The notes under the pieces were generated by a model. It saw only the letters and a program-made list of their open reading frames with translations. It was not told the DNA's origin and made no database searches. 64,000 nt of DNA from Rhodococcus sp. AW25M09 (GTDB taxonomy: Bacteria > Actinomycetota > Actinomycetes > Mycobacteriales > Mycobacteriaceae), in the NCBI RefSeq assembly GCF_000333955.1, contig NZ_CAPS01000124.1, forward strand, positions 1-64,000, read 5' to 3'. How positions within the stretch are numbered: the first letter of the stretch is position 1; each line of letters begins with the position of its first letter. Shown piece after piece: positions 41,840-49,967 of this stretch. The translations under genes and the position numbers were made by a program.

Positions 41840-42742
41840 TCACCTCACCATGTCGACGGCGGTACCGACAGCAGCTTCGACGTTTCCATCCGGCGGGTAG
41901 AGCAACGTGCGGCCGACGATCAAGCCCCGAACTGCGGGAATCTCGAGCGCGCGGGCCCAACTGGCATACGTCTCCTCCGGCGCAGTCTGCGGGTCGCCGC
42001 CGAGGAGCAGCGTCGGGAACGTCGTGGCATCCATGACGCGTTCCATCTCGGGTACCACGGGAAGCTTCATCCACGTGTGGGCCGAGCTGGATCCGAGGCC
42101 TTGCGTGATGTGAATCGATTTGATGACCGCGTCCGCACTCAGATCGTTCTTGACGCGACCTTCGACCCGGCGCGAGAGGAACGGCTCCACCATGGCGATG
42201 AGGTTCGCCGCGGACAATTCGTCGATTGCCTGCGCGCACGCCGTCATCGTGGCCAGAGTGCCCGGATCGTCGAGTGCGATCCGGGTGAGCATCTTCGCGC
42301 CGTTCATCCGCGCCTTGGCCGTGGAAGCGGCTGTGGCACCGGTCATTCGGTCGTCCAACTCGAACGAGGCACCGGCCAAGCCACCGCGATTCATAGACGA
42401 GAAGATCACCTTGTCTTCGAGCGCTCCGAGCAGCACGAGGTCGTCCAGGATGTCGGCAGAGCCGAGGACACCGTCCACGCCGGGGTTGGCGAGCGCGGTG
42501 CGCAGCCGGTCCAGCAGTTCGGTGCGGCTGTTCATGGCGGTCATGTCCGAGCCCACCGACAGCGCTCCCCGTGCCGGATGGTCGGCGGCAACGATCATCA
42601 GTCGGCCGTTGCCGCGGATGGTCGGGCGAGTGACTCGCGTGGCCCAGGCACGTTCGATGGCCTGCGGGTCGGTGGCGCGAATTGCGGTGACCTCGGCGTA
42701 AGTGGCGGCCGCGGGTGCGGCGCTCAAGGTGGTCTCAGACAT
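41840..42742 (-). CDS. DeoC-like aldolase of the Cgl0159 type (IolJ role)
   Basis: A 300-residue beta/alpha barrel. It lacks the sequence of Bacillus IolJ but matches the protein that sits next to iolB in corynebacterial clusters. Barrel marks include MIVAADHPARGALSVG, AMVEPFLSR and WMKLPVVPEMERVM, the last containing a Lys suited to Schiff-base chemistry. I infer that it cleaves 2-deoxy-5-keto-gluconate-6-phosphate to DHAP and malonic semialdehyde, the only step otherwise missing. It overlaps iolC by 8 bp. Confidence 0.8.
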   Translation of the reverse strand: MSETTLSAAPAAATYAEVTAIRATDPQAIERAWATRVTRPTIRGNGRLMIVAADHPARGALSVGSDMTAMNSRTELLDRLRTALANPGVDGVLGSADILDDLVLLGALEDKVIFSSMNRGGLAGASFELDDRMTGATAASTAKARMNGAKMLTRIALDDPGTLATMTACAQAIDELSAANLIAMVEPFLSRRVEGRVKNDLSADAVIKSIHITQGLGSSSAHTWMKLPVVPEMERVMDATTFPTLLLGGDPQTAPEETYASWARALEIPAVRGLIVGRTLLYPPDGNVEAAVGTAVDMVR

Positions 42743-43733
42743 TGACAGCCTCCGTAGCGGTTCGTTCTGCGAGTAGTGCAACTTCGGTGGCGGTGGGCAT
42801 TGCCGTCGAGCATTCGAGGCGCGACGCCACGATCGCTCCGGCGGCGTTGCCGTAGCGCAGAATTTTCTCCAGGGGCCAACCGGCGAGCAAGCCATGGCAC
42901 AGGGATCCGCCGAAGCTGTCTCCCGCCCCGAGACCGTTGACCACATCGACGAAATTCGGCGGCACGGTGACTGTCTGCGTCTTGGTCTTGCCCAGAACAC
43001 CTTTCGGGCCCATCTTGACTATGGCCAGCGAGACTCCGAGGTCGAGAAGCGCGTCGGCCGCCTTGTGCGGGTCGGTCTCGCCGACAGCAACCTGACACTC
43101 TTCCTTGTTTCCGACGGCAACGGTGACATGCTCGAGGGCCCGGCGCACCTGCTCCGTTGCGGCTGCGGGCGAATCCCAGAACATCGGCCGGTAGTCGAGG
43201 TCGAGCACGGTCAGCGGCGCTCGATCTCGAGCCTCCCATGCAGCGAAATGCGCGCTGCGGCTGGGCTCTTCGGACAAGCCGGTGACTGTCGACCAGTACA
43301 GACGCGCGCTACGGACGGCGTCGACGTCGATGTTCTCCGCACGAATCTGCAGATCGGGTGCCGACGGCTTTCGGTAGAAGTACAGCGGAAAGTCGTCGGG
43401 CGGGAAGATCTCGCAGAAGGTCACCGGAGTCGCGAACTGATGGTCGGTGACGACGAATCGGTTGTCGACGCCCAGCCGGGCCAACTCCGCGGCCACGTAA
43501 CGACCGAAGGGGTCGTCGCCGACGCCGGAGATCAACGCCGAGCGGCAGCCCAGCCGCGCGGCAGCAACGGTGACATTCGCGGCGCTACCGCCCAGGAACT
43601 TTCCGAAGGTGTCGACCTGTTCGAGACCGACACCGGTCTGCAGGGGGTAGATATCGACACCGCTTCGCCCGATGGCGAGGACGTCGAAGGCCGCGGTGTA
43701 CGCGTCGGCTGAGGTGGTCACGATCGACTCCAT
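42735..43733 (-). CDS. iolC: 5-dehydro-2-deoxygluconokinase
   Basis: A 332-residue PfkB/ribokinase-family kinase. Substrate and nucleotide motifs are LGGSAANVTVAAARLG near the start and NGLGAGDSFGGSLCHG with the catalytic Asp near the end. It phosphorylates the IolB product. It is the first gene of the iol operon. I start at ATG 43733 (MESIVTTS); the frame remains open to 43811 but that part overlaps the operator and CRP-type site. Confidence 0.93.
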   Translation of the reverse strand: MESIVTTSADAYTAAFDVLAIGRSGVDIYPLQTGVGLEQVDTFGKFLGGSAANVTVAAARLGCRSALISGVGDDPFGRYVAAELARLGVDNRFVVTDHQFATPVTFCEIFPPDDFPLYFYRKPSAPDLQIRAENIDVDAVRSARLYWSTVTGLSEEPSRSAHFAAWEARDRAPLTVLDLDYRPMFWDSPAAATEQVRRALEHVTVAVGNKEECQVAVGETDPHKAADALLDLGVSLAIVKMGPKGVLGKTKTQTVTVPPNFVDVVNGLGAGDSFGGSLCHGLLAGWPLEKILRYGNAAGAIVASRLECSTAMPTATEVALLAERTATEAVNV

Positions 43734-43790
43734 TGGTGTGAGGTGTTCGTTTTCGGTGAGGGGCTTCCACACGTTCTTCGGTGCGTCCAC

Positions 43791-43806
43791 TGTGCGTGAG
43801 CTCACA
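43791..43806 (-). promoter_or_regulatory. CRP/GlxR-type site at the iolC promoter
   Basis: TGTGCGTGAGCTCACA (plus strand) fits the 16-bp CRP/GlxR form TGTGA-N6-TCACA with nine of ten defined positions. It begins 4 bp after the IolR-like block on the iolC side. Confidence 0.6.
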
Positions 43807-43810
43807 TACA

Positions 43811-43835
43811 AATGTCAATAGTTTGTCCTGACATT
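43811..43835 (-). promoter_or_regulatory. IolR-like operator/promoter block upstream of iolC
   Basis: On the minus strand the block starts AATGTC, one variable base, then GGACAAACTATTGAC and ends with ATT. It contains the palindrome-like core TGTCAGGACA (43824-43833). It matches the block at 46874 in 23 of 25 bases. It lies between iolC and the divergent GntR gene, so it may control both. Confidence 0.7.
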
Positions 43836-43923: not shown

Positions 43924-44694
43924 GTGACCACGTCGAACACAGCGGCACCTGGAACCGAGGCGGCGCAACTGTCCGTCGAACTCAACCGGTCCAGTCCGGT
44001 CCCCCTCTACTTTCAACTGGCCCAAGCGATCGAATCCGCAATCTTGCAGGGCATCCTCGCGCCGGGGGAACGATTCGAGAACGAACTGGCACTGGCCAAG
44101 CGGCTGAGCCTGTCCCGTCCCACCACCCGCCGAGCGATCCAGGAACTGGTCGACAAAGGGCTACTCGTGCGCAAACGTGGTGTCGGAACACAGGTGGTTC
44201 AGAGTCCGGTCCACCGACCGGTCGAGCTCACCAGCCTGTTCGACGACCTCGCCCGCGCCGGGCAGAACCCGACGACCCGCCTACTCGACTATCAGGTCGG
44301 TCCGCCGACCCGCGACGTCGCACAGGAATTGAACATCGCCGATACGACGGACGTCGTCACCATCCGCAGGCTCCGCAGTACCAACGGTGAGCCACTCGCC
44401 GTCATGGTCAATTATCTGCCGAGTGAGATCGCCCCGGAGCCGGACGAGCTCGAATCCCAGGGCCTGTACTCCTCGCTGCGTACACGAGGAGTACACATCA
44501 GGCTCGCACGTCAACGCATCGGTGCCCGAGCGGCCGATCGCGAAGAGGCCGCCCTGCTCGACGAAAAATTCAAGGCACCGCTGCTGACCATGAACCGCAC
44601 CGCATTCGACGATTCGGGACGCGTCGTCGAATTCGGAGCGCACGTGTATCGCGCTTCGCGGTATTACTTCGACACCACCCTGGTCGATCGCTGA
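43924..44694 (+). CDS. iolR: GntR family (UTRA) regulator of inositol genes
   Basis: A 256-residue regulator: a GntR winged helix (PLYFQLAQAIESAILQGILAPGERFENELALAKRLSLSRPTTRRAIQELVDKGLLVRKRGVGTQV) and a C-terminal UTRA effector domain. GTG 43924 follows GGGAGAGACC. It diverges from iolC, with the operator at 43811-43835 between. By analogy with the corynebacterial inositol regulator, also of the GntR family, it probably represses the iol operon and importer until inositol or a derivative binds. Confidence 0.85.
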   Translation: MTTSNTAAPGTEAAQLSVELNRSSPVPLYFQLAQAIESAILQGILAPGERFENELALAKRLSLSRPTTRRAIQELVDKGLLVRKRGVGTQVVQSPVHRPVELTSLFDDLARAGQNPTTRLLDYQVGPPTRDVAQELNIADTTDVVTIRRLRSTNGEPLAVMVNYLPSEIAPEPDELESQGLYSSLRTRGVHIRLARQRIGARAADREEAALLDEKFKAPLLTMNRTAFDDSGRVVEFGAHVYRASRYYFDTTLVDR

Positions 44695-44732: not shown

Positions 44733-45731
44733 TCAGAGAGTCCTGTCGACCGCGACGGTGCCGCCGCCGCGGTGCATCGAGGTGATCAACGCCCGCGCCA
44801 CCAGGCTCGCCTGTAGGCCGTCTCGCGCTGACGCCAGCGTGGACGTACGCCCTTCTGCGATCGAATCGATCCACTCGCGCAGCTGGAGTCGATAGGCGTC
44901 GGCAAAGCGAGGGACCCAGTCCCGTGCATACGAATAGCTGTGCCGCAGAGCATGATCGGTCACCGTCCGAATCGGTTCCGCCAGACGGCTCGCGCCCTCT
45001 TCGCCGATCACCTCACAGCGGATGTCGTACCCGTAGCCGGCGTTGAGGAACAATTCCACGGTCGTCAGGACGCCGCTTTCGGTGCGCAACAACATGAACT
45101 GTGGATCGCGGCGGTGGCCGATCCGCGTGCTCGCACGAGTGGTGTGCCAGCTGACCTCGACCACCGGGGAGTCGAGCAACCACGGCACCGTATCGAGTTC
45201 GTGGATGGCAGAACCGGTGATACTGGCCTCCGAATCGCCGCCGGGCCCCGAGGTGACCGTTCGACTCGAGCAATGCACGATCAACGGCTCTCCCACTGCG
45301 CGCGAGGTCACGGTGTGCCTCAACTCGACGTATCCTGGATCGAAGCGGCGCATGAATCCCACTGTGAGCAGTGGAATTCCGCCCGATATCGCGGCCTCGT
45401 GGGCTCGCACCACTCGTACGCATTCGTCGACGGTCACTGCGAGCGGCTTCTCGCACAGAACAGGCTTGCGCGCCTCGATACAGGCAAGCACGAGATCCGC
45501 GTGGGTGGAGTCGTGGGAGGCGACGACGACGGCGTCGACGTCGGTCCGGGAGATCAAGCCGTACGGGTCGGTGAGGCCATCCGCACCGACCTCGGCGGCC
45601 AAGCCCGCCGCGCGGGAGGCGTCGACGTCCGCTACGGCCGTGACAGTCGCACCCGACACAACCGAATGCAGATTCCGGATGTGGTCTGCGCCCATCACCC
45701 CGGCACCGATCACTCCTACACGCACGCTCAT
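44733..45731 (-). CDS. Gfo/Idh/MocA oxidoreductase, inositol dehydrogenase-like
   Basis: A 332-residue NAD(P) dehydrogenase with Rossmann motif VIGAGVMGADHIRN, catalytic Lys in CEKPLAVTVDE, and GSAIHELDTVPWLL. It is closely similar in layout to the operon IolG and may use another inositol isomer. It diverges from a second Idh-family gene across the perfect palindrome at 45766 and converges on the GntR gene. Confidence 0.85.
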   Translation of the reverse strand: MSVRVGVIGAGVMGADHIRNLHSVVSGATVTAVADVDASRAAGLAAEVGADGLTDPYGLISRTDVDAVVVASHDSTHADLVLACIEARKPVLCEKPLAVTVDECVRVVRAHEAAISGGIPLLTVGFMRRFDPGYVELRHTVTSRAVGEPLIVHCSSRTVTSGPGGDSEASITGSAIHELDTVPWLLDSPVVEVSWHTTRASTRIGHRRDPQFMLLRTESGVLTTVELFLNAGYGYDIRCEVIGEEGASRLAEPIRTVTDHALRHSYSYARDWVPRFADAYRLQLREWIDSIAEGRTSTLASARDGLQASLVARALITSMHRGGGTVAVDRTL

Positions 45732-45765: not shown

Positions 45766-45777
45766 ATGTCCGGACAT
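45766..45777. promoter_or_regulatory. IolR-like operator between divergent dehydrogenase genes
   Basis: ATGTCCGGACAT is a perfect 12-bp palindrome whose core TGTCCGGACA matches the TGTC-N-GGACA cores at 43824 and 46876. It sits between the two divergent dehydrogenase genes. Confidence 0.65.
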
Positions 45778-45808
45778 ATGCACAACAGTCGATACTAGGG
45801 TGTTCGAG

Positions 45809-46843
45809 ATGACTTCGACCACAGAATTGCTACTTCCGCCCTCACGCGTCGCTCCGCCCACCGATGCGCCTGCACTCCGATGGGGCATCCTGGGGCCTGG
45901 CTGGATCGCTGCTCGATTCGCAGAAGCGTTGCGTAACCATACTTCTCAGAACATTTCGGCCGTGGCCTCCAGAAACGCACAGCGGGGCGCGACGTTCGCG
46001 GCCGACTGGGGGATTCCGTCCGTGTACGGCAACTACGACGAACTCGTCTCGAGTTCCGAGGTCGATGTCGTGTACATCGCCACCCCGCACACCTCCCATT
46101 TCGAGCACGCGACCCTGGCGCTCGAGGCCGGAAAGCACGTGGTGGTGGAAAAACCCCTCGCTCTCGACGCCCGGCAGGCTCACTCCATCGCCGAGATCGC
46201 CCGCTCCAAGAGCCTGTTCGCAATGGAGGCCATGTGGTCCGCCTTTCTGCCGAAATTCGACGTGATGGATCAGGTCTTGTCTCAGGGGATGCTCGGTGAG
46301 ATCGGAACCGTTCTGGCAGACCACGGCGAGCACTTCGAGACCGATCACCGCATCTACGACCCGGCACTCGCCGGCGGTCCGTTACTCGACCTGGGGACAT
46401 ACGCGGTCTATTTCGCACAGATGGCCTTGGGTCCTCCCACCACCGTCACTGCAGTAGGACAGCAGGCCAACTCGGAGCTGAACGGTCAGATCTCCGCGAT
46501 CCTGACATCGCCTACAGGCGCTCACGCCGTTCTCAACACCACCATCCTGGTAGACACACCGAACCTCGCCGCAGTGTGCGGAAGTTCAGGAATGCTCAGC
46601 ACGGAGGGCGTTTTCTACCGACCGGGGAACTTCACCGTGTCCCTGCGCGACGGAAGATCGGCTCGATTCGTCGATGACGTCAGCGGTTACCCCGCGGGAC
46701 TTGCCTACGAGGCCGCGGAGGCAGCCCGCCGAATCACCAATGGTGAGCTCGAAAGCCCCTGTCACACAATGTCCGACACCATCTCGACCCTCGACACCCT
46801 CGACGAACTGCGGCGCGTGCTGGGGATCGATTTTCCCTCCTGA
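45809..46843 (+). CDS. Gfo/Idh/MocA oxidoreductase
   Basis: About 344 residues (ATG 45809; an in-frame GTG at 45800 is possible). The Rossmann motif is GILGPGWIAARFAEAL, the catalytic Lys is in VVEKPLALDA, and EAMWSAFLPKFDVMD plus GGPLLDLGTYAVYFAQ place it near the dihydrodiol/xylose dehydrogenase branch. Its start lies 32 bp after the operator palindrome, so it probably belongs to the inositol regulon. Substrate unproven. Confidence 0.83.
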   Translation: MTSTTELLLPPSRVAPPTDAPALRWGILGPGWIAARFAEALRNHTSQNISAVASRNAQRGATFAADWGIPSVYGNYDELVSSSEVDVVYIATPHTSHFEHATLALEAGKHVVVEKPLALDARQAHSIAEIARSKSLFAMEAMWSAFLPKFDVMDQVLSQGMLGEIGTVLADHGEHFETDHRIYDPALAGGPLLDLGTYAVYFAQMALGPPTTVTAVGQQANSELNGQISAILTSPTGAHAVLNTTILVDTPNLAAVCGSSGMLSTEGVFYRPGNFTVSLRDGRSARFVDDVSGYPAGLAYEAAEAARRITNGELESPCHTMSDTISTLDTLDELRRVLGIDFPS

Positions 46844-46873: not shown

Positions 46874-46898
46874 AATGTCTGGACAAACTATTGACTTT
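46874..46898 (+). promoter_or_regulatory. IolR-like operator/promoter block upstream of the ABC importer
   Basis: Starts AATGTC, then a variable base and GGACAAACTATTGAC, matching the iolC block in 23 of 25 bases. TTGACT (46891) and TTACAT (46914) are 17 bp apart and could be -35 and -10, which would place the operator core TGTCTGGACA (46876-46885) just above the -35. Confidence 0.7.
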
Positions 46899-46902
46899 CA
46901 GG

Positions 46903-46918
46903 TGTGACGGGTATTACA
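46903..46918 (+). promoter_or_regulatory. CRP/GlxR-type site at the importer promoter
   Basis: TGTGACGGGTATTACA matches TGTGA-N6-TCACA at nine of ten defined positions. It starts 4 bp after the operator block, the same spacing as at iolC. It overlaps the putative -10. Confidence 0.55.
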
Positions 46919-46985
46919 TCCCCTAAGGCAGTTCGCCCGACCCGACATCAGCGGGTCGTCTGGTCATCGAGAGGATGTTTGGAAA

Positions 46986-48020
46986 ATGACGTCTCGTCTG
47001 GGTTCGGTAACGCATAGGTCCCCAAAGAACCTGGGGCGCAAAACCATCACGATGGCGATCGGGGTCACGTTGGCGGCATCGGTCGCGGCGTGCTCGTCCT
47101 CGGGCGGCGCGCAGGACTCGTCCGACAGTGGCAGCGGTGCAGGGACGGCCGACACCCCGAAGGCGACCATCGCCATGATCACCCACGAGGTTCCCGGAGA
47201 CACGTTCTGGGACCTGATCCGAAAGGGTGCCGAAGCTGCAGCGGCGAAGGACAACATCGAGCTGCGGTATTCGTCCGACCCCGAGGCACCCAATCAGGCG
47301 AACCTGGTGCAGAGCGCGATCGACTCGAAGGTCGACGGCATCGCGGTCACTCTGGCCAAGCCCGACGCAATGGCCCCGTCCGTCGAGGCCGCTGATGCAG
47401 CCGGAATCCCTGTGGTGGCCTTCAACTCCGGGTTCGACTCCTGGAAGGACATGGGCGTCGGACAGTACTTCGGGCAGGACGAGACCATCGCCGGTCAGGC
47501 CGCAGGCGCTCGTCTGACCGCGGACGGCGCGAAGAAGACCCTGTGCATCATTCAGGAACAGGGGCAGGTTGCGCTCGAATCACGGTGCGCCGGCGTCAAG
47601 AGCGGATTCACCGGTGGTAGCACCGAGATCCTCAACGTCAACAGCAAGGACATGCCCTCGGTAGAGGCAACCATCACCGCAAAGTTGCAGCAGGACCCCG
47701 CCATCGATCATATCGTCGCGCTCGGTGCGCCGATCGCGCTGACCGCAGTGCAGTCCAAGGCCAACGCCGGTAGCAACGCCACCGTCGTCACCTTCGACAC
47801 CAACGCCGCACTCGTCGATGCACTCCAGTCCGGTGATGTCGCGTGGGCGATCGATCAGCAGCCGTACCTGCAGGGGTACCTGGCTGTCGACTCACTGTGG
47901 CTCTACCTCAACAACGGCAACACCATCGGCGGCGGCACCCCGGTACTGACCGGACCCGCGTTCATCGACCAGTCCAATATCGACGCCATCGCCGAGTACG
48001 CCCAGAACGGCACTCGCTGA
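46986..48020 (+). CDS. sugar/inositol ABC substrate-binding lipoprotein
   Basis: A 344-residue solute receptor. The signal peptide ends in a lipobox (SVAAC), followed by a Ser/Gly-rich linker and a RbsB-like periplasmic-binding fold (ATIAMITHEVPGDTFWDLIRKGAE, then AIDSKVDGIAVTLAKPDAM). The promoter is shared in type with iolC, so inositol or an inositol isomer is the likely ligand. A hairpin separates it from the permease gene. Confidence 0.9.
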   Translation: MTSRLGSVTHRSPKNLGRKTITMAIGVTLAASVAACSSSGGAQDSSDSGSGAGTADTPKATIAMITHEVPGDTFWDLIRKGAEAAAAKDNIELRYSSDPEAPNQANLVQSAIDSKVDGIAVTLAKPDAMAPSVEAADAAGIPVVAFNSGFDSWKDMGVGQYFGQDETIAGQAAGARLTADGAKKTLCIIQEQGQVALESRCAGVKSGFTGGSTEILNVNSKDMPSVEATITAKLQQDPAIDHIVALGAPIALTAVQSKANAGSNATVVTFDTNAALVDALQSGDVAWAIDQQPYLQGYLAVDSLWLYLNNGNTIGGGTPVLTGPAFIDQSNIDAIAEYAQNGTR

Positions 48021-48086: not shown

Positions 48087-49145
48087 ATGTCCACGCAGGC
48101 CGACCTGGATCTGTCCAAACACACCGTCGTCGTCGATGAACGAGTGAAGAAGCAAAAGCCGTTGCAGCGGTTGTTGATTCGCCCGGAAATCGGTGCACTG
48201 TTCGGCGCAATCATCATCTTCGTATTCTTCTGCATCGTTGCCCCTCCATTCCGCTCCCCCGAGGCCCTCGCCACCGTCCTCTACGCGTCCTCGACGATCG
48301 GCATCATGGCCATCGGTGTGTCGCTGTTGATGATCGGCGGCGAGTTCGACCTGTCGACCGGAGTCGCGGTCACCTTCTCTTCGATCATGGCCTCGATGAT
48401 CGCCTACAACCTGCACCTCAACGTATGGATCGGATCCGCGCTGGCATTGGTGCTGGCGCTGGGGGTCGGATTCCTCAACGGGTGGCTGGTGATGACGACG
48501 AAGATTCCGTCGTTCCTGATCACTCTGGCGAGCTTCTTGATGCTCACCGGAATCAATCTTGCGGTCACCAAGTTGGTGACCGGACAGGTAGCAACACAGT
48601 CGATCTCGGATATGGATGGATTCCATTCCGCCAAAGCGGTGTTCTCGTCGTCGTTCTCGCTGTTCGGAATCTCCATCCGCATCACCGTCGTGTGGTGGAT
48701 CGTCTTCACTCTCGCGGCCACCTGGGTGTTGATGAAAACCCGTATAGGCAACTGGATCTTCGCCGTCGGCGGCAACCAGGACTCCGCCCGCGCGATCGGT
48801 GTTCCGGTGACCAAGGTCAAGATCGGTTTGTTCATGTTCGTCGGCTTCTGCGCCTGGTTCGTCGGCATGCACCTGCTGTTCGCGTTCAACACCGTCCAGT
48901 CCGGCCAAGGTGTCGGCAACGAGTTCCTCTACATCATCGCCGCGGTCATCGGCGGGTGCCTGCTCACCGGCGGATTCGGCACTGCCATCGGCGCTTTCAT
49001 CGGTGCCTTCATCTTCGGCATGGCCAACCAGGGCATCGTCTACGCCGGCTGGAACCCCGACTGGTTCAAGTTCTTCCTCGGCGCGATGCTGCTGTTCGCC
49101 GTCATCGCCAACAACTCGTTCCGCACCTACGCCGCGAAGAGGTAA
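48087..49145 (+). CDS. ABC sugar permease (RbsC type)
   Basis: A 352-residue inner-membrane permease with about ten spans. Family marks include MAIGVSLLMIGGEFDLSTGVAVTFSSI and VGGNQDSARAIGVPVTKVKIGLF. Being a single permease gene, it probably acts as a homodimer. It lies 3 bp before the ATPase gene. Confidence 0.92.
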   Translation: MSTQADLDLSKHTVVVDERVKKQKPLQRLLIRPEIGALFGAIIIFVFFCIVAPPFRSPEALATVLYASSTIGIMAIGVSLLMIGGEFDLSTGVAVTFSSIMASMIAYNLHLNVWIGSALALVLALGVGFLNGWLVMTTKIPSFLITLASFLMLTGINLAVTKLVTGQVATQSISDMDGFHSAKAVFSSSFSLFGISIRITVVWWIVFTLAATWVLMKTRIGNWIFAVGGNQDSARAIGVPVTKVKIGLFMFVGFCAWFVGMHLLFAFNTVQSGQGVGNEFLYIIAAVIGGCLLTGGFGTAIGAFIGAFIFGMANQGIVYAGWNPDWFKFFLGAMLLFAVIANNSFRTYAAKR

Positions 49146-49148
49146 ATC

Positions 49149-49967
49149 ATGACCGTTCACGCCGATACCCCTATCGAATCCGAACCCGCGGGCGGGGGAA
49201 AAACGCCTCTCATCGAACTGAAGAACGTGGGAAAGAGCTACGGCAACATCATCGCTCTGCAGGGCATCGACCTACGCGTGGGTGCCGGTGAAGTCACCGG
49301 AGTCCTCGGCGACAACGGAGCCGGTAAGTCCACCCTGATCAAGATCATGGCCGGCCTGCATCAGCAGAGCGAAGGAGAACTGCTTGTCGACGGTAAGGCG
49401 ACCACGTTCGCCTCCCCCAAGGACGCGCTGAACCAGGGCATAGCGACGGTCTACCAAGATCTCGCCGTTGTCGCCCTCATGCCGGTGTGGCGCAACTTCT
49501 TTCTCGGCCAGGAGCTTCGCAAAGGCTCGGTGTTCAAGTCCCTCGACACCAACGCCATGCGGGCGACGACCGTAGAAGAACTGCACAAGATGGGCATCGA
49601 TCTTCCCGACGTCGATGCCCCCATCGGCTCGCTCTCGGGCGGCCAGCGCCAGTGCGTCGCCATCGCTCGCGCAATCTTTTTCGGTGCTCGTGTTCTGATC
49701 CTCGACGAGCCCACCGCAGCCCTCGGCGTCAAGCAATCGGGAATGGTGCTTCGCTACATCTCCGCGGCCAAGGAACAAGGCTTCGGCGTTGTCTTCATCA
49801 CCCACAATCCCCACCACGCGTACATGGTCGGCGATCACTTCGTCCTGCTCAACCGTGGACGCCAAAAGCTCGACTGCAGCTACGAGGACATCTCGCTCGA
49901 CGACCTCACCAAGGAAATGGCGGGCGGCGACGAACTCGACACCCTCACCCACGAACTTCGCCGATAG
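49149..49967 (+). CDS. ABC sugar transporter ATP-binding protein
   Basis: A 272-residue ATPase. Walker A is GDNGAGKST, the signature is LSGGQRQ, Walker B is VLILDEPTAAL and the H-loop His is in VFITHNPHH. It has one nucleotide-binding domain, about half the length of two-domain RbsA-type proteins, so it should work as a homodimer. Confidence 0.92.
   Translation: MTVHADTPIESEPAGGGKTPLIELKNVGKSYGNIIALQGIDLRVGAGEVTGVLGDNGAGKSTLIKIMAGLHQQSEGELLVDGKATTFASPKDALNQGIATVYQDLAVVALMPVWRNFFLGQELRKGSVFKSLDTNAMRATTVEELHKMGIDLPDVDAPIGSLSGGQRQCVAIARAIFFGARVLILDEPTAALGVKQSGMVLRYISAAKEQGFGVVFITHNPHHAYMVGDHFVLLNRGRQKLDCSYEDISLDDLTKEMAGGDELDTLTHELRR

Follow-up and report, generated by a model that had tools for sequence, protein, structure and literature searches.

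The inositol locus of Rhodococcus sp. AW25M09 carries nearly the same sequence upstream of two separate operons, one beginning with iolC and one encoding an importer, and we asked what this element is and which regulators could act on it. In the 64,000-nucleotide stretch analysed here (the window), iolC, for 5-dehydro-2-deoxygluconokinase, lies at 42735-43733 on the minus strand (TIGR04382, above cut-off). Divergent from it stands the gene of a GntR/UTRA (HutC-type) regulator, the probable IolR (43924-44694, plus strand; PF00392 and PF07702). Its nearest named relatives belong to the fascians group of Rhodococcus/Rhodococcoides, and its GntR DNA-binding and UTRA effector domains, together with the adjoining iol genes, are what a GntR-type IolR regulon would contain. 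An inositol dehydrogenase-like gene of the iolG family (44733-45731, minus strand; below the curated cut-off) and a Gfo/Idh/MocA dehydrogenase-like gene (45800-46843, plus strand) follow. The importer genes are all on the plus strand and encode a substrate-binding protein of the rhizopine/sugar type (46986-48020; PF13407, with NF052284 below cut-off), a permease (48087-49145; PF02653) and an ATPase (49149-49967; PF00005). iolD was also called at the locus (TIGR04377).

The shared block probably consists of an operator and a -35 box

Read directly, the iolC-side element (43835 to 43791, minus strand) is AATGTCAGGACAAACTATTGACATT-TGTA-TGTGAGCTCACGCACA and the importer-side element (46874-46918, plus strand) is AATGTCTGGACAAACTATTGACTTT-CAGG-TGTGACGGGTATTACA. 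Our re-reading reproduced the composition given in the preliminary description, namely a 25-bp block identical at 23 of 25 positions, a 4-bp gap and a 16-bp dyad. A search of the window with the 20-mer TGTCNGGACAAACTATTGAC, allowing up to three mismatches, returned only these two places, where shuffled sequences lead one to expect none. The block (43811-43835, minus strand, and 46874-46898, plus strand) had been taken as one operator. We parse it as a 10-bp operator, TGTCnGGACA, with a -35 box, TTGACA or TTGACT, 5 bp further on. On the iolC side the order on the minus strand is TGTCAGGACA (43824-43833; alignment columns near 2 bits), AACTA, TTGACA (43813-43818), an 18-bp spacer and CACAGT (43789-43794), and the dyad TGTGAGCTCACGCACA (43791-43806) runs from the 3′ part of the spacer into the first bases of CACAGT. 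The importer promoter reads on the plus strand TGTCTGGACA (46876-46885), AACTA, TTGACT (46891-46896), an 18-bp spacer and TACATC (46915-46920), with the dyad TGTGACGGGTATTACA (46903-46918) in the same register as at iolC. Across relatives the consensus was TGTCaGGACAAAgTaTTGACA, N6-7, GTG, N8, CACaGT for the iolC type and TGTCnGnACAAAgTnTTGACtTTc, TGTGAgccGTATTACATC for the importer type.

A third operator core, TGTCCGGACA (45767-45776, assigned to no strand), had been overlooked. It sits in the gap of the divergent iolG-like and IDH-like pair and is kept in relatives that have this pair, being conserved in two loci (L119 and L120) and present as TGTCCAGACA in another (L129). Neither TTGAC nor a dyad was found beside it. 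As this core and its relatives occur without AAACTATTGAC, a single 25-bp operator was dropped as a candidate. The palindrome is common to the iol and transporter promoters and co-occurs with the regulator, and TGTCnGGACA is most likely the operator bound by the GntR-type IolR.

To examine the promoter geometry we used 87 distinct sequences upstream of iolR orthologues of the family and of 80 named genomes, all of which carry the block upstream of iolC. The distance from the -35 box to a NANNNT hexamer was 18 bp in 77 and 17 bp in 10 of them, and TTGAC was invariant in the 77 copies with the longer spacer. The second A and the final T of the hexamer were kept in every sequence (87/87), including those in which the CAC of the dyad is lost or followed by other bases (CATTGT, CAGAGT, CAAAGT, CACCCT and CACTCT). 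Since this invariance is a signature of -10 boxes, we regard the 3′ hexamer as the -10 box. The primary sigma pattern (TTGAC, then a -10 box with A2 and T6 at 16-19 bp) thus fits the iolC type throughout (87/87), and the importer type only in part, its hexamer TACATC being without T6. In the importer type GTATTACATC is conserved, and the register of TACATC matches that of TACAAA, seen in another family's importer promoters. Sequence conservation ends directly past the last T of the hexamer at iolC and the last C at the importer. This parsing, which places operator and -35 box in the block and the -10 box within the 3′ motif, explains why their order is constant and their distance nearly so. 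The gap of "exactly 4 bp" holds for both copies in the window and for 56 of 60 importer promoters preceding a binding-protein gene, but shifts by 1 bp with the iolC spacer; the apparent fixed spacing is, as far as these alignments go, promoter geometry.

A dyad with the features of a Crp/GlxR site overlaps the predicted -10 box

The 16-bp dyad resembles a Crp/GlxR site, TGTGA-N6-TCACA-like with a GTG-N8-CAC core. The core is complete at iolC; at the importer its right half is TAC, and the form conserved there is GTG-N8-YAC. A Crp/GlxR orthologue is encoded in the genome (contig C129 of G000). Its best relatives in the PDB were chains that we take to be M. tuberculosis Crp and C. glutamicum GlxR. 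Calling such a site from a single sequence is uninformative, as TGTG-N8-CACA with at most one mismatch occurs in the window at chance level (20 found, 23.8 expected), so that any support has to come from relatives. This chance frequency speaks for a simpler explanation, in which IolR acts on an ordinary promoter, nothing but spacer and -10 box makes up the 3′ element, and the resemblance to a CRP site is incidental. That explanation is favoured also by the NANNNT pattern, which survives in iolC promoters with a broken CAC (CATTGT, CAGAGT, CAAAGT), and by other families, which keep the operator and -35 box without a dyad (GTG-N8-YAC in 3/40).

What argues against it is the left half, GTG, which promoter elements do not explain. 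GTG stands 8 bases ahead of CAC in 72 of 87 iolC sequences, and at any other offset in 12 at most; TGTGA lies exactly 7 bp past TTGAC in 56 of 60 binding-protein promoters. The complete GTG-N8-CAC was present in 71 of the 87 iolC sequences, the other 16 being without one or both halves, and GTG-N8-YAC in 60 of 62 importer sequences. After redundancy reduction GTG-N8-YAC remained in 37/48 iolC and 13/15 importer sequences. The inner spacing of 8 far exceeds the others, which occur in 0-4 of 48 iolC sequences, with a runner-up at spacing 10 in 8/15 importer sequences, a weak control with 15 sequences; the relatives are not independent, and P values of this comparison overstate its significance. 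Among the ten iolC promoters with a 17-bp spacer, four retain N8, the dyad moving relative to the -35 box, and hence it behaves as a unit. We therefore regard IolR on an ordinary promoter as an unlikely account of the whole element. Judged from these alignments selection maintains the dyad, and its likeliest ligand is Crp.

The right half of the predicted dyad coincides with the predicted -10 box (CACAGT at iolC, TACATC at the importer), which follows the -35 box after 17-18 bp. We thus propose, with a probability of roughly 60%, that each element is a single promoter of the housekeeping type overlapped by two control sites, an IolR operator by the -35 box and a dyad over the spacer and -10 box at which cAMP-Crp would repress. 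When inositol is lacking, IolR would sit on TGTCnGGACA, 5 bp ahead of the -35 box, and block RNA polymerase there; an operator at this position fits classical repression. The GTG-N8-CAC dyad lies within the 17-18 bp spacer, and its right half falls on the -10 box; cAMP-bound Crp/GlxR at this site would occlude polymerase and likewise repress. Both operons would then be expressed only if IolR has been released by an inducer derived from inositol and the DNA is free of Crp. We infer protein binding, the repressive sign of Crp action and the identity of the inducer from what was observed: the anatomy, its conservation, the gene context and the presence of both regulators.

The sign of Crp action could be the opposite, since in R. 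jostii Crp motifs, given as GTGAnnTGnGTCAC, are associated with up-regulated genes (PMC5327559). If Crp were an activator, TTGAC would not be a -35 box, and Crp at the dyad would drive a promoter further downstream, as in class II or class I activation. CACAGT and TACATC are indeed poor -10 boxes, so that the promoters might need an activator; CRP activates iol genes in Salmonella (PMC10783015), and GlxR is able to activate (PMC7999487). However, past CACAGT and TACATC conservation collapses and no conserved -10 box is seen about 20-30 bp further down, and a promoter at TTGAC would account for the invariance of A2 and T6 as well as for the TA-type hexamers that other families have at 17-18 bp. 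Activation from the dyad is in our estimate improbable, and joint inositol and cAMP control of both operons, as predicted from the promoter layout, is likely. The composite switch put forward in the preliminary description is in this sense partly supported, right in spirit and wrong in its parsing.

The operator and -35 box recur across the class, the dyad chiefly in one family

Conservation upstream of iol genes in relatives had been named beforehand as the test of the composite, and it was found at both the iolC and the importer promoters. With up to two mismatches the block was present in 23 of 37 genomes of the genus (the reversed pattern gave one match in one genome). These 23 are exactly the genomes with the GntR gene, a co-occurrence that comes in part from the locus being present or absent as a whole. 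Beside iolR, in Rhodococcus, Rhodococcoides, Mycolicibacterium and Antrihabitans, blocks were found upstream of iolC (89) and of importer genes (62, of which 60 precede a binding-protein and 2 a permease gene), apart from four coding matches at the limit of four mismatches. Since it recurs in 23/37 genomes and, beside iolR, only upstream of iolC and the importer, the shared block is not due to chance.

Recent copying of the block from one promoter to the other operon, so that duplication and not selection underlies the similarity, would account for the 23/25 identity of the two copies. Yet each type is conserved separately across several genera, with different upstream flanks and -10 boxes, and the right halves of the dyads differ (GCACA versus TTACA); we consider such copying very improbable.

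In a class-wide scan the operator and -35 box were found as a unit in 66 of 395 genomes (one genome for the reversed pattern). Outside the family, 39 of the 40 units read stand upstream of iolC-, iolG- or importer-like genes; these genomes were picked by the pattern, so that conservation of the block there is by construction, while the gene context is not. Most have a plausible -10 box about 17-18 bp on (TACAAA, TAGAAC, TAGACC, GAACAT or CAGACT). GTG-N8-YAC accompanies only 3 of the 40, two of them at the family's position, versus 131 of 151 within the family. We conclude that the unit is old and widely distributed, that the dyad belongs mainly to the family, and that the two-part switch, earlier thought to be fixed, is not obligatory.

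Nor is the composite present in every holder of IolR: 19 of 154 loci, all with a regulator identity below 70%, had no block beside iolR at up to five mismatches, and orthologues below about 70% identity are often without the operator/-35/dyad layout. One genus (g30) has TGACAGGACA directly downstream of a TTAGAT -10 box in place of the composite. In its loci L105-L110, TTAGATTGACAGGACA lies in the iolC-iolR gap, the operator being just past the -10 box and not ahead of the -35 box. Other Rhodococcoides genomes (L208, L214, L226 and L230) have a second importer with a paralogous binding protein and the same composite, near TGTCAGGACAAATGCTTGAC-N6/7-TGTGATnnGGATTACA.

Similar promoters at other genes

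Patterns were also used for genome-wide scans of the organism's own genome. TTGAC-N5..8-GTG-N8-YACA was found at six places, two of them the iolC and importer promoters, and its reversed control at two. There were only four additional places, one of them before an aspA-like gene and lacking an IolR operator, and a class under IolR plus Crp extending beyond iol genes was not retained. The promoter of the aspartate ammonia-lyase-like gene (L202, that is G000:C120:4462, and L231) reads TTGAC-N17/18-CACACT; its spacer contains a CRP-like dyad, an IolR operator is absent, and the arrangement hints that such promoters may form a broader class. TTGAC-N7-TGTG-N8-TCACA was seen before a reductase-like gene in several of the genus's genomes (L207 and L213, in G003 and G009; also in G022), again lacking the IolR operator. 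We tentatively suggest, and consider it somewhat less likely than its contrary, that Mycobacteriaceae have a promoter class whose -10 hexamer (CACAnT/TACATC) also serves as a Crp half-site, polymerase and cAMP-Crp competing for the same bases, and that this was added to the older operator/-35 unit and occurs also at unrelated genes such as aspA.

Relation to known systems

Both operons serve inositol use in a host that is an actinobacterium of soil or plant association. The analysis provides a precise model of the inositol-use promoters of Rhodococcus and Mycolicibacterium, a short pattern from which IolR targets can be predicted, and a two-input promoter for biotechnology. With the operator and -35 box found across Actinomycetes, the dyad mostly in one family and the operator placed differently in another genus, one can trace how catabolite control was gained.

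The operator of C. glutamicum IolR reportedly has the consensus KGWCHTRACA, put forward by Klaffl in 2013, and TGTCCTGACA fits this consensus. A literature text search returned no match to KGWCHTRACA, and none of the papers covered joined GlxR, IolR and iolT1. The IolR of Salmonella belongs to a different repressor family. As here, the Salmonella iol promoters combine an inositol repressor with CRP, but CRP activates there (PMC10783015). Closer by its regulator is C. glutamicum, whose IolR, of the GntR type, represses genes of inositol uptake and catabolism (PMC9603128, PMC8634428). The likeness is one of regulators, and the importer here is an ABC system and not IolT1; here, moreover, the operator abuts the -35 box and a Crp-like dyad lies within the spacer. 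GlxR acts as activator or repressor depending on its position (PMC7652997). The gluconate genes gntP and gntK of C. glutamicum offer a close precedent for the proposed dual control, as substrate-responsive GntR-type repressors (GntR1/2) act there together with reported GlxR-cAMP repression at a catabolic promoter, cAMP being higher on glucose (PMC2230225). Regulator and substrate differ, and the accessible part of that report does not describe a fixed operator/-35/dyad layout at two operons. The composite is real and strongly conserved; it is not wholly new but varies a well-known way of controlling sugar genes.
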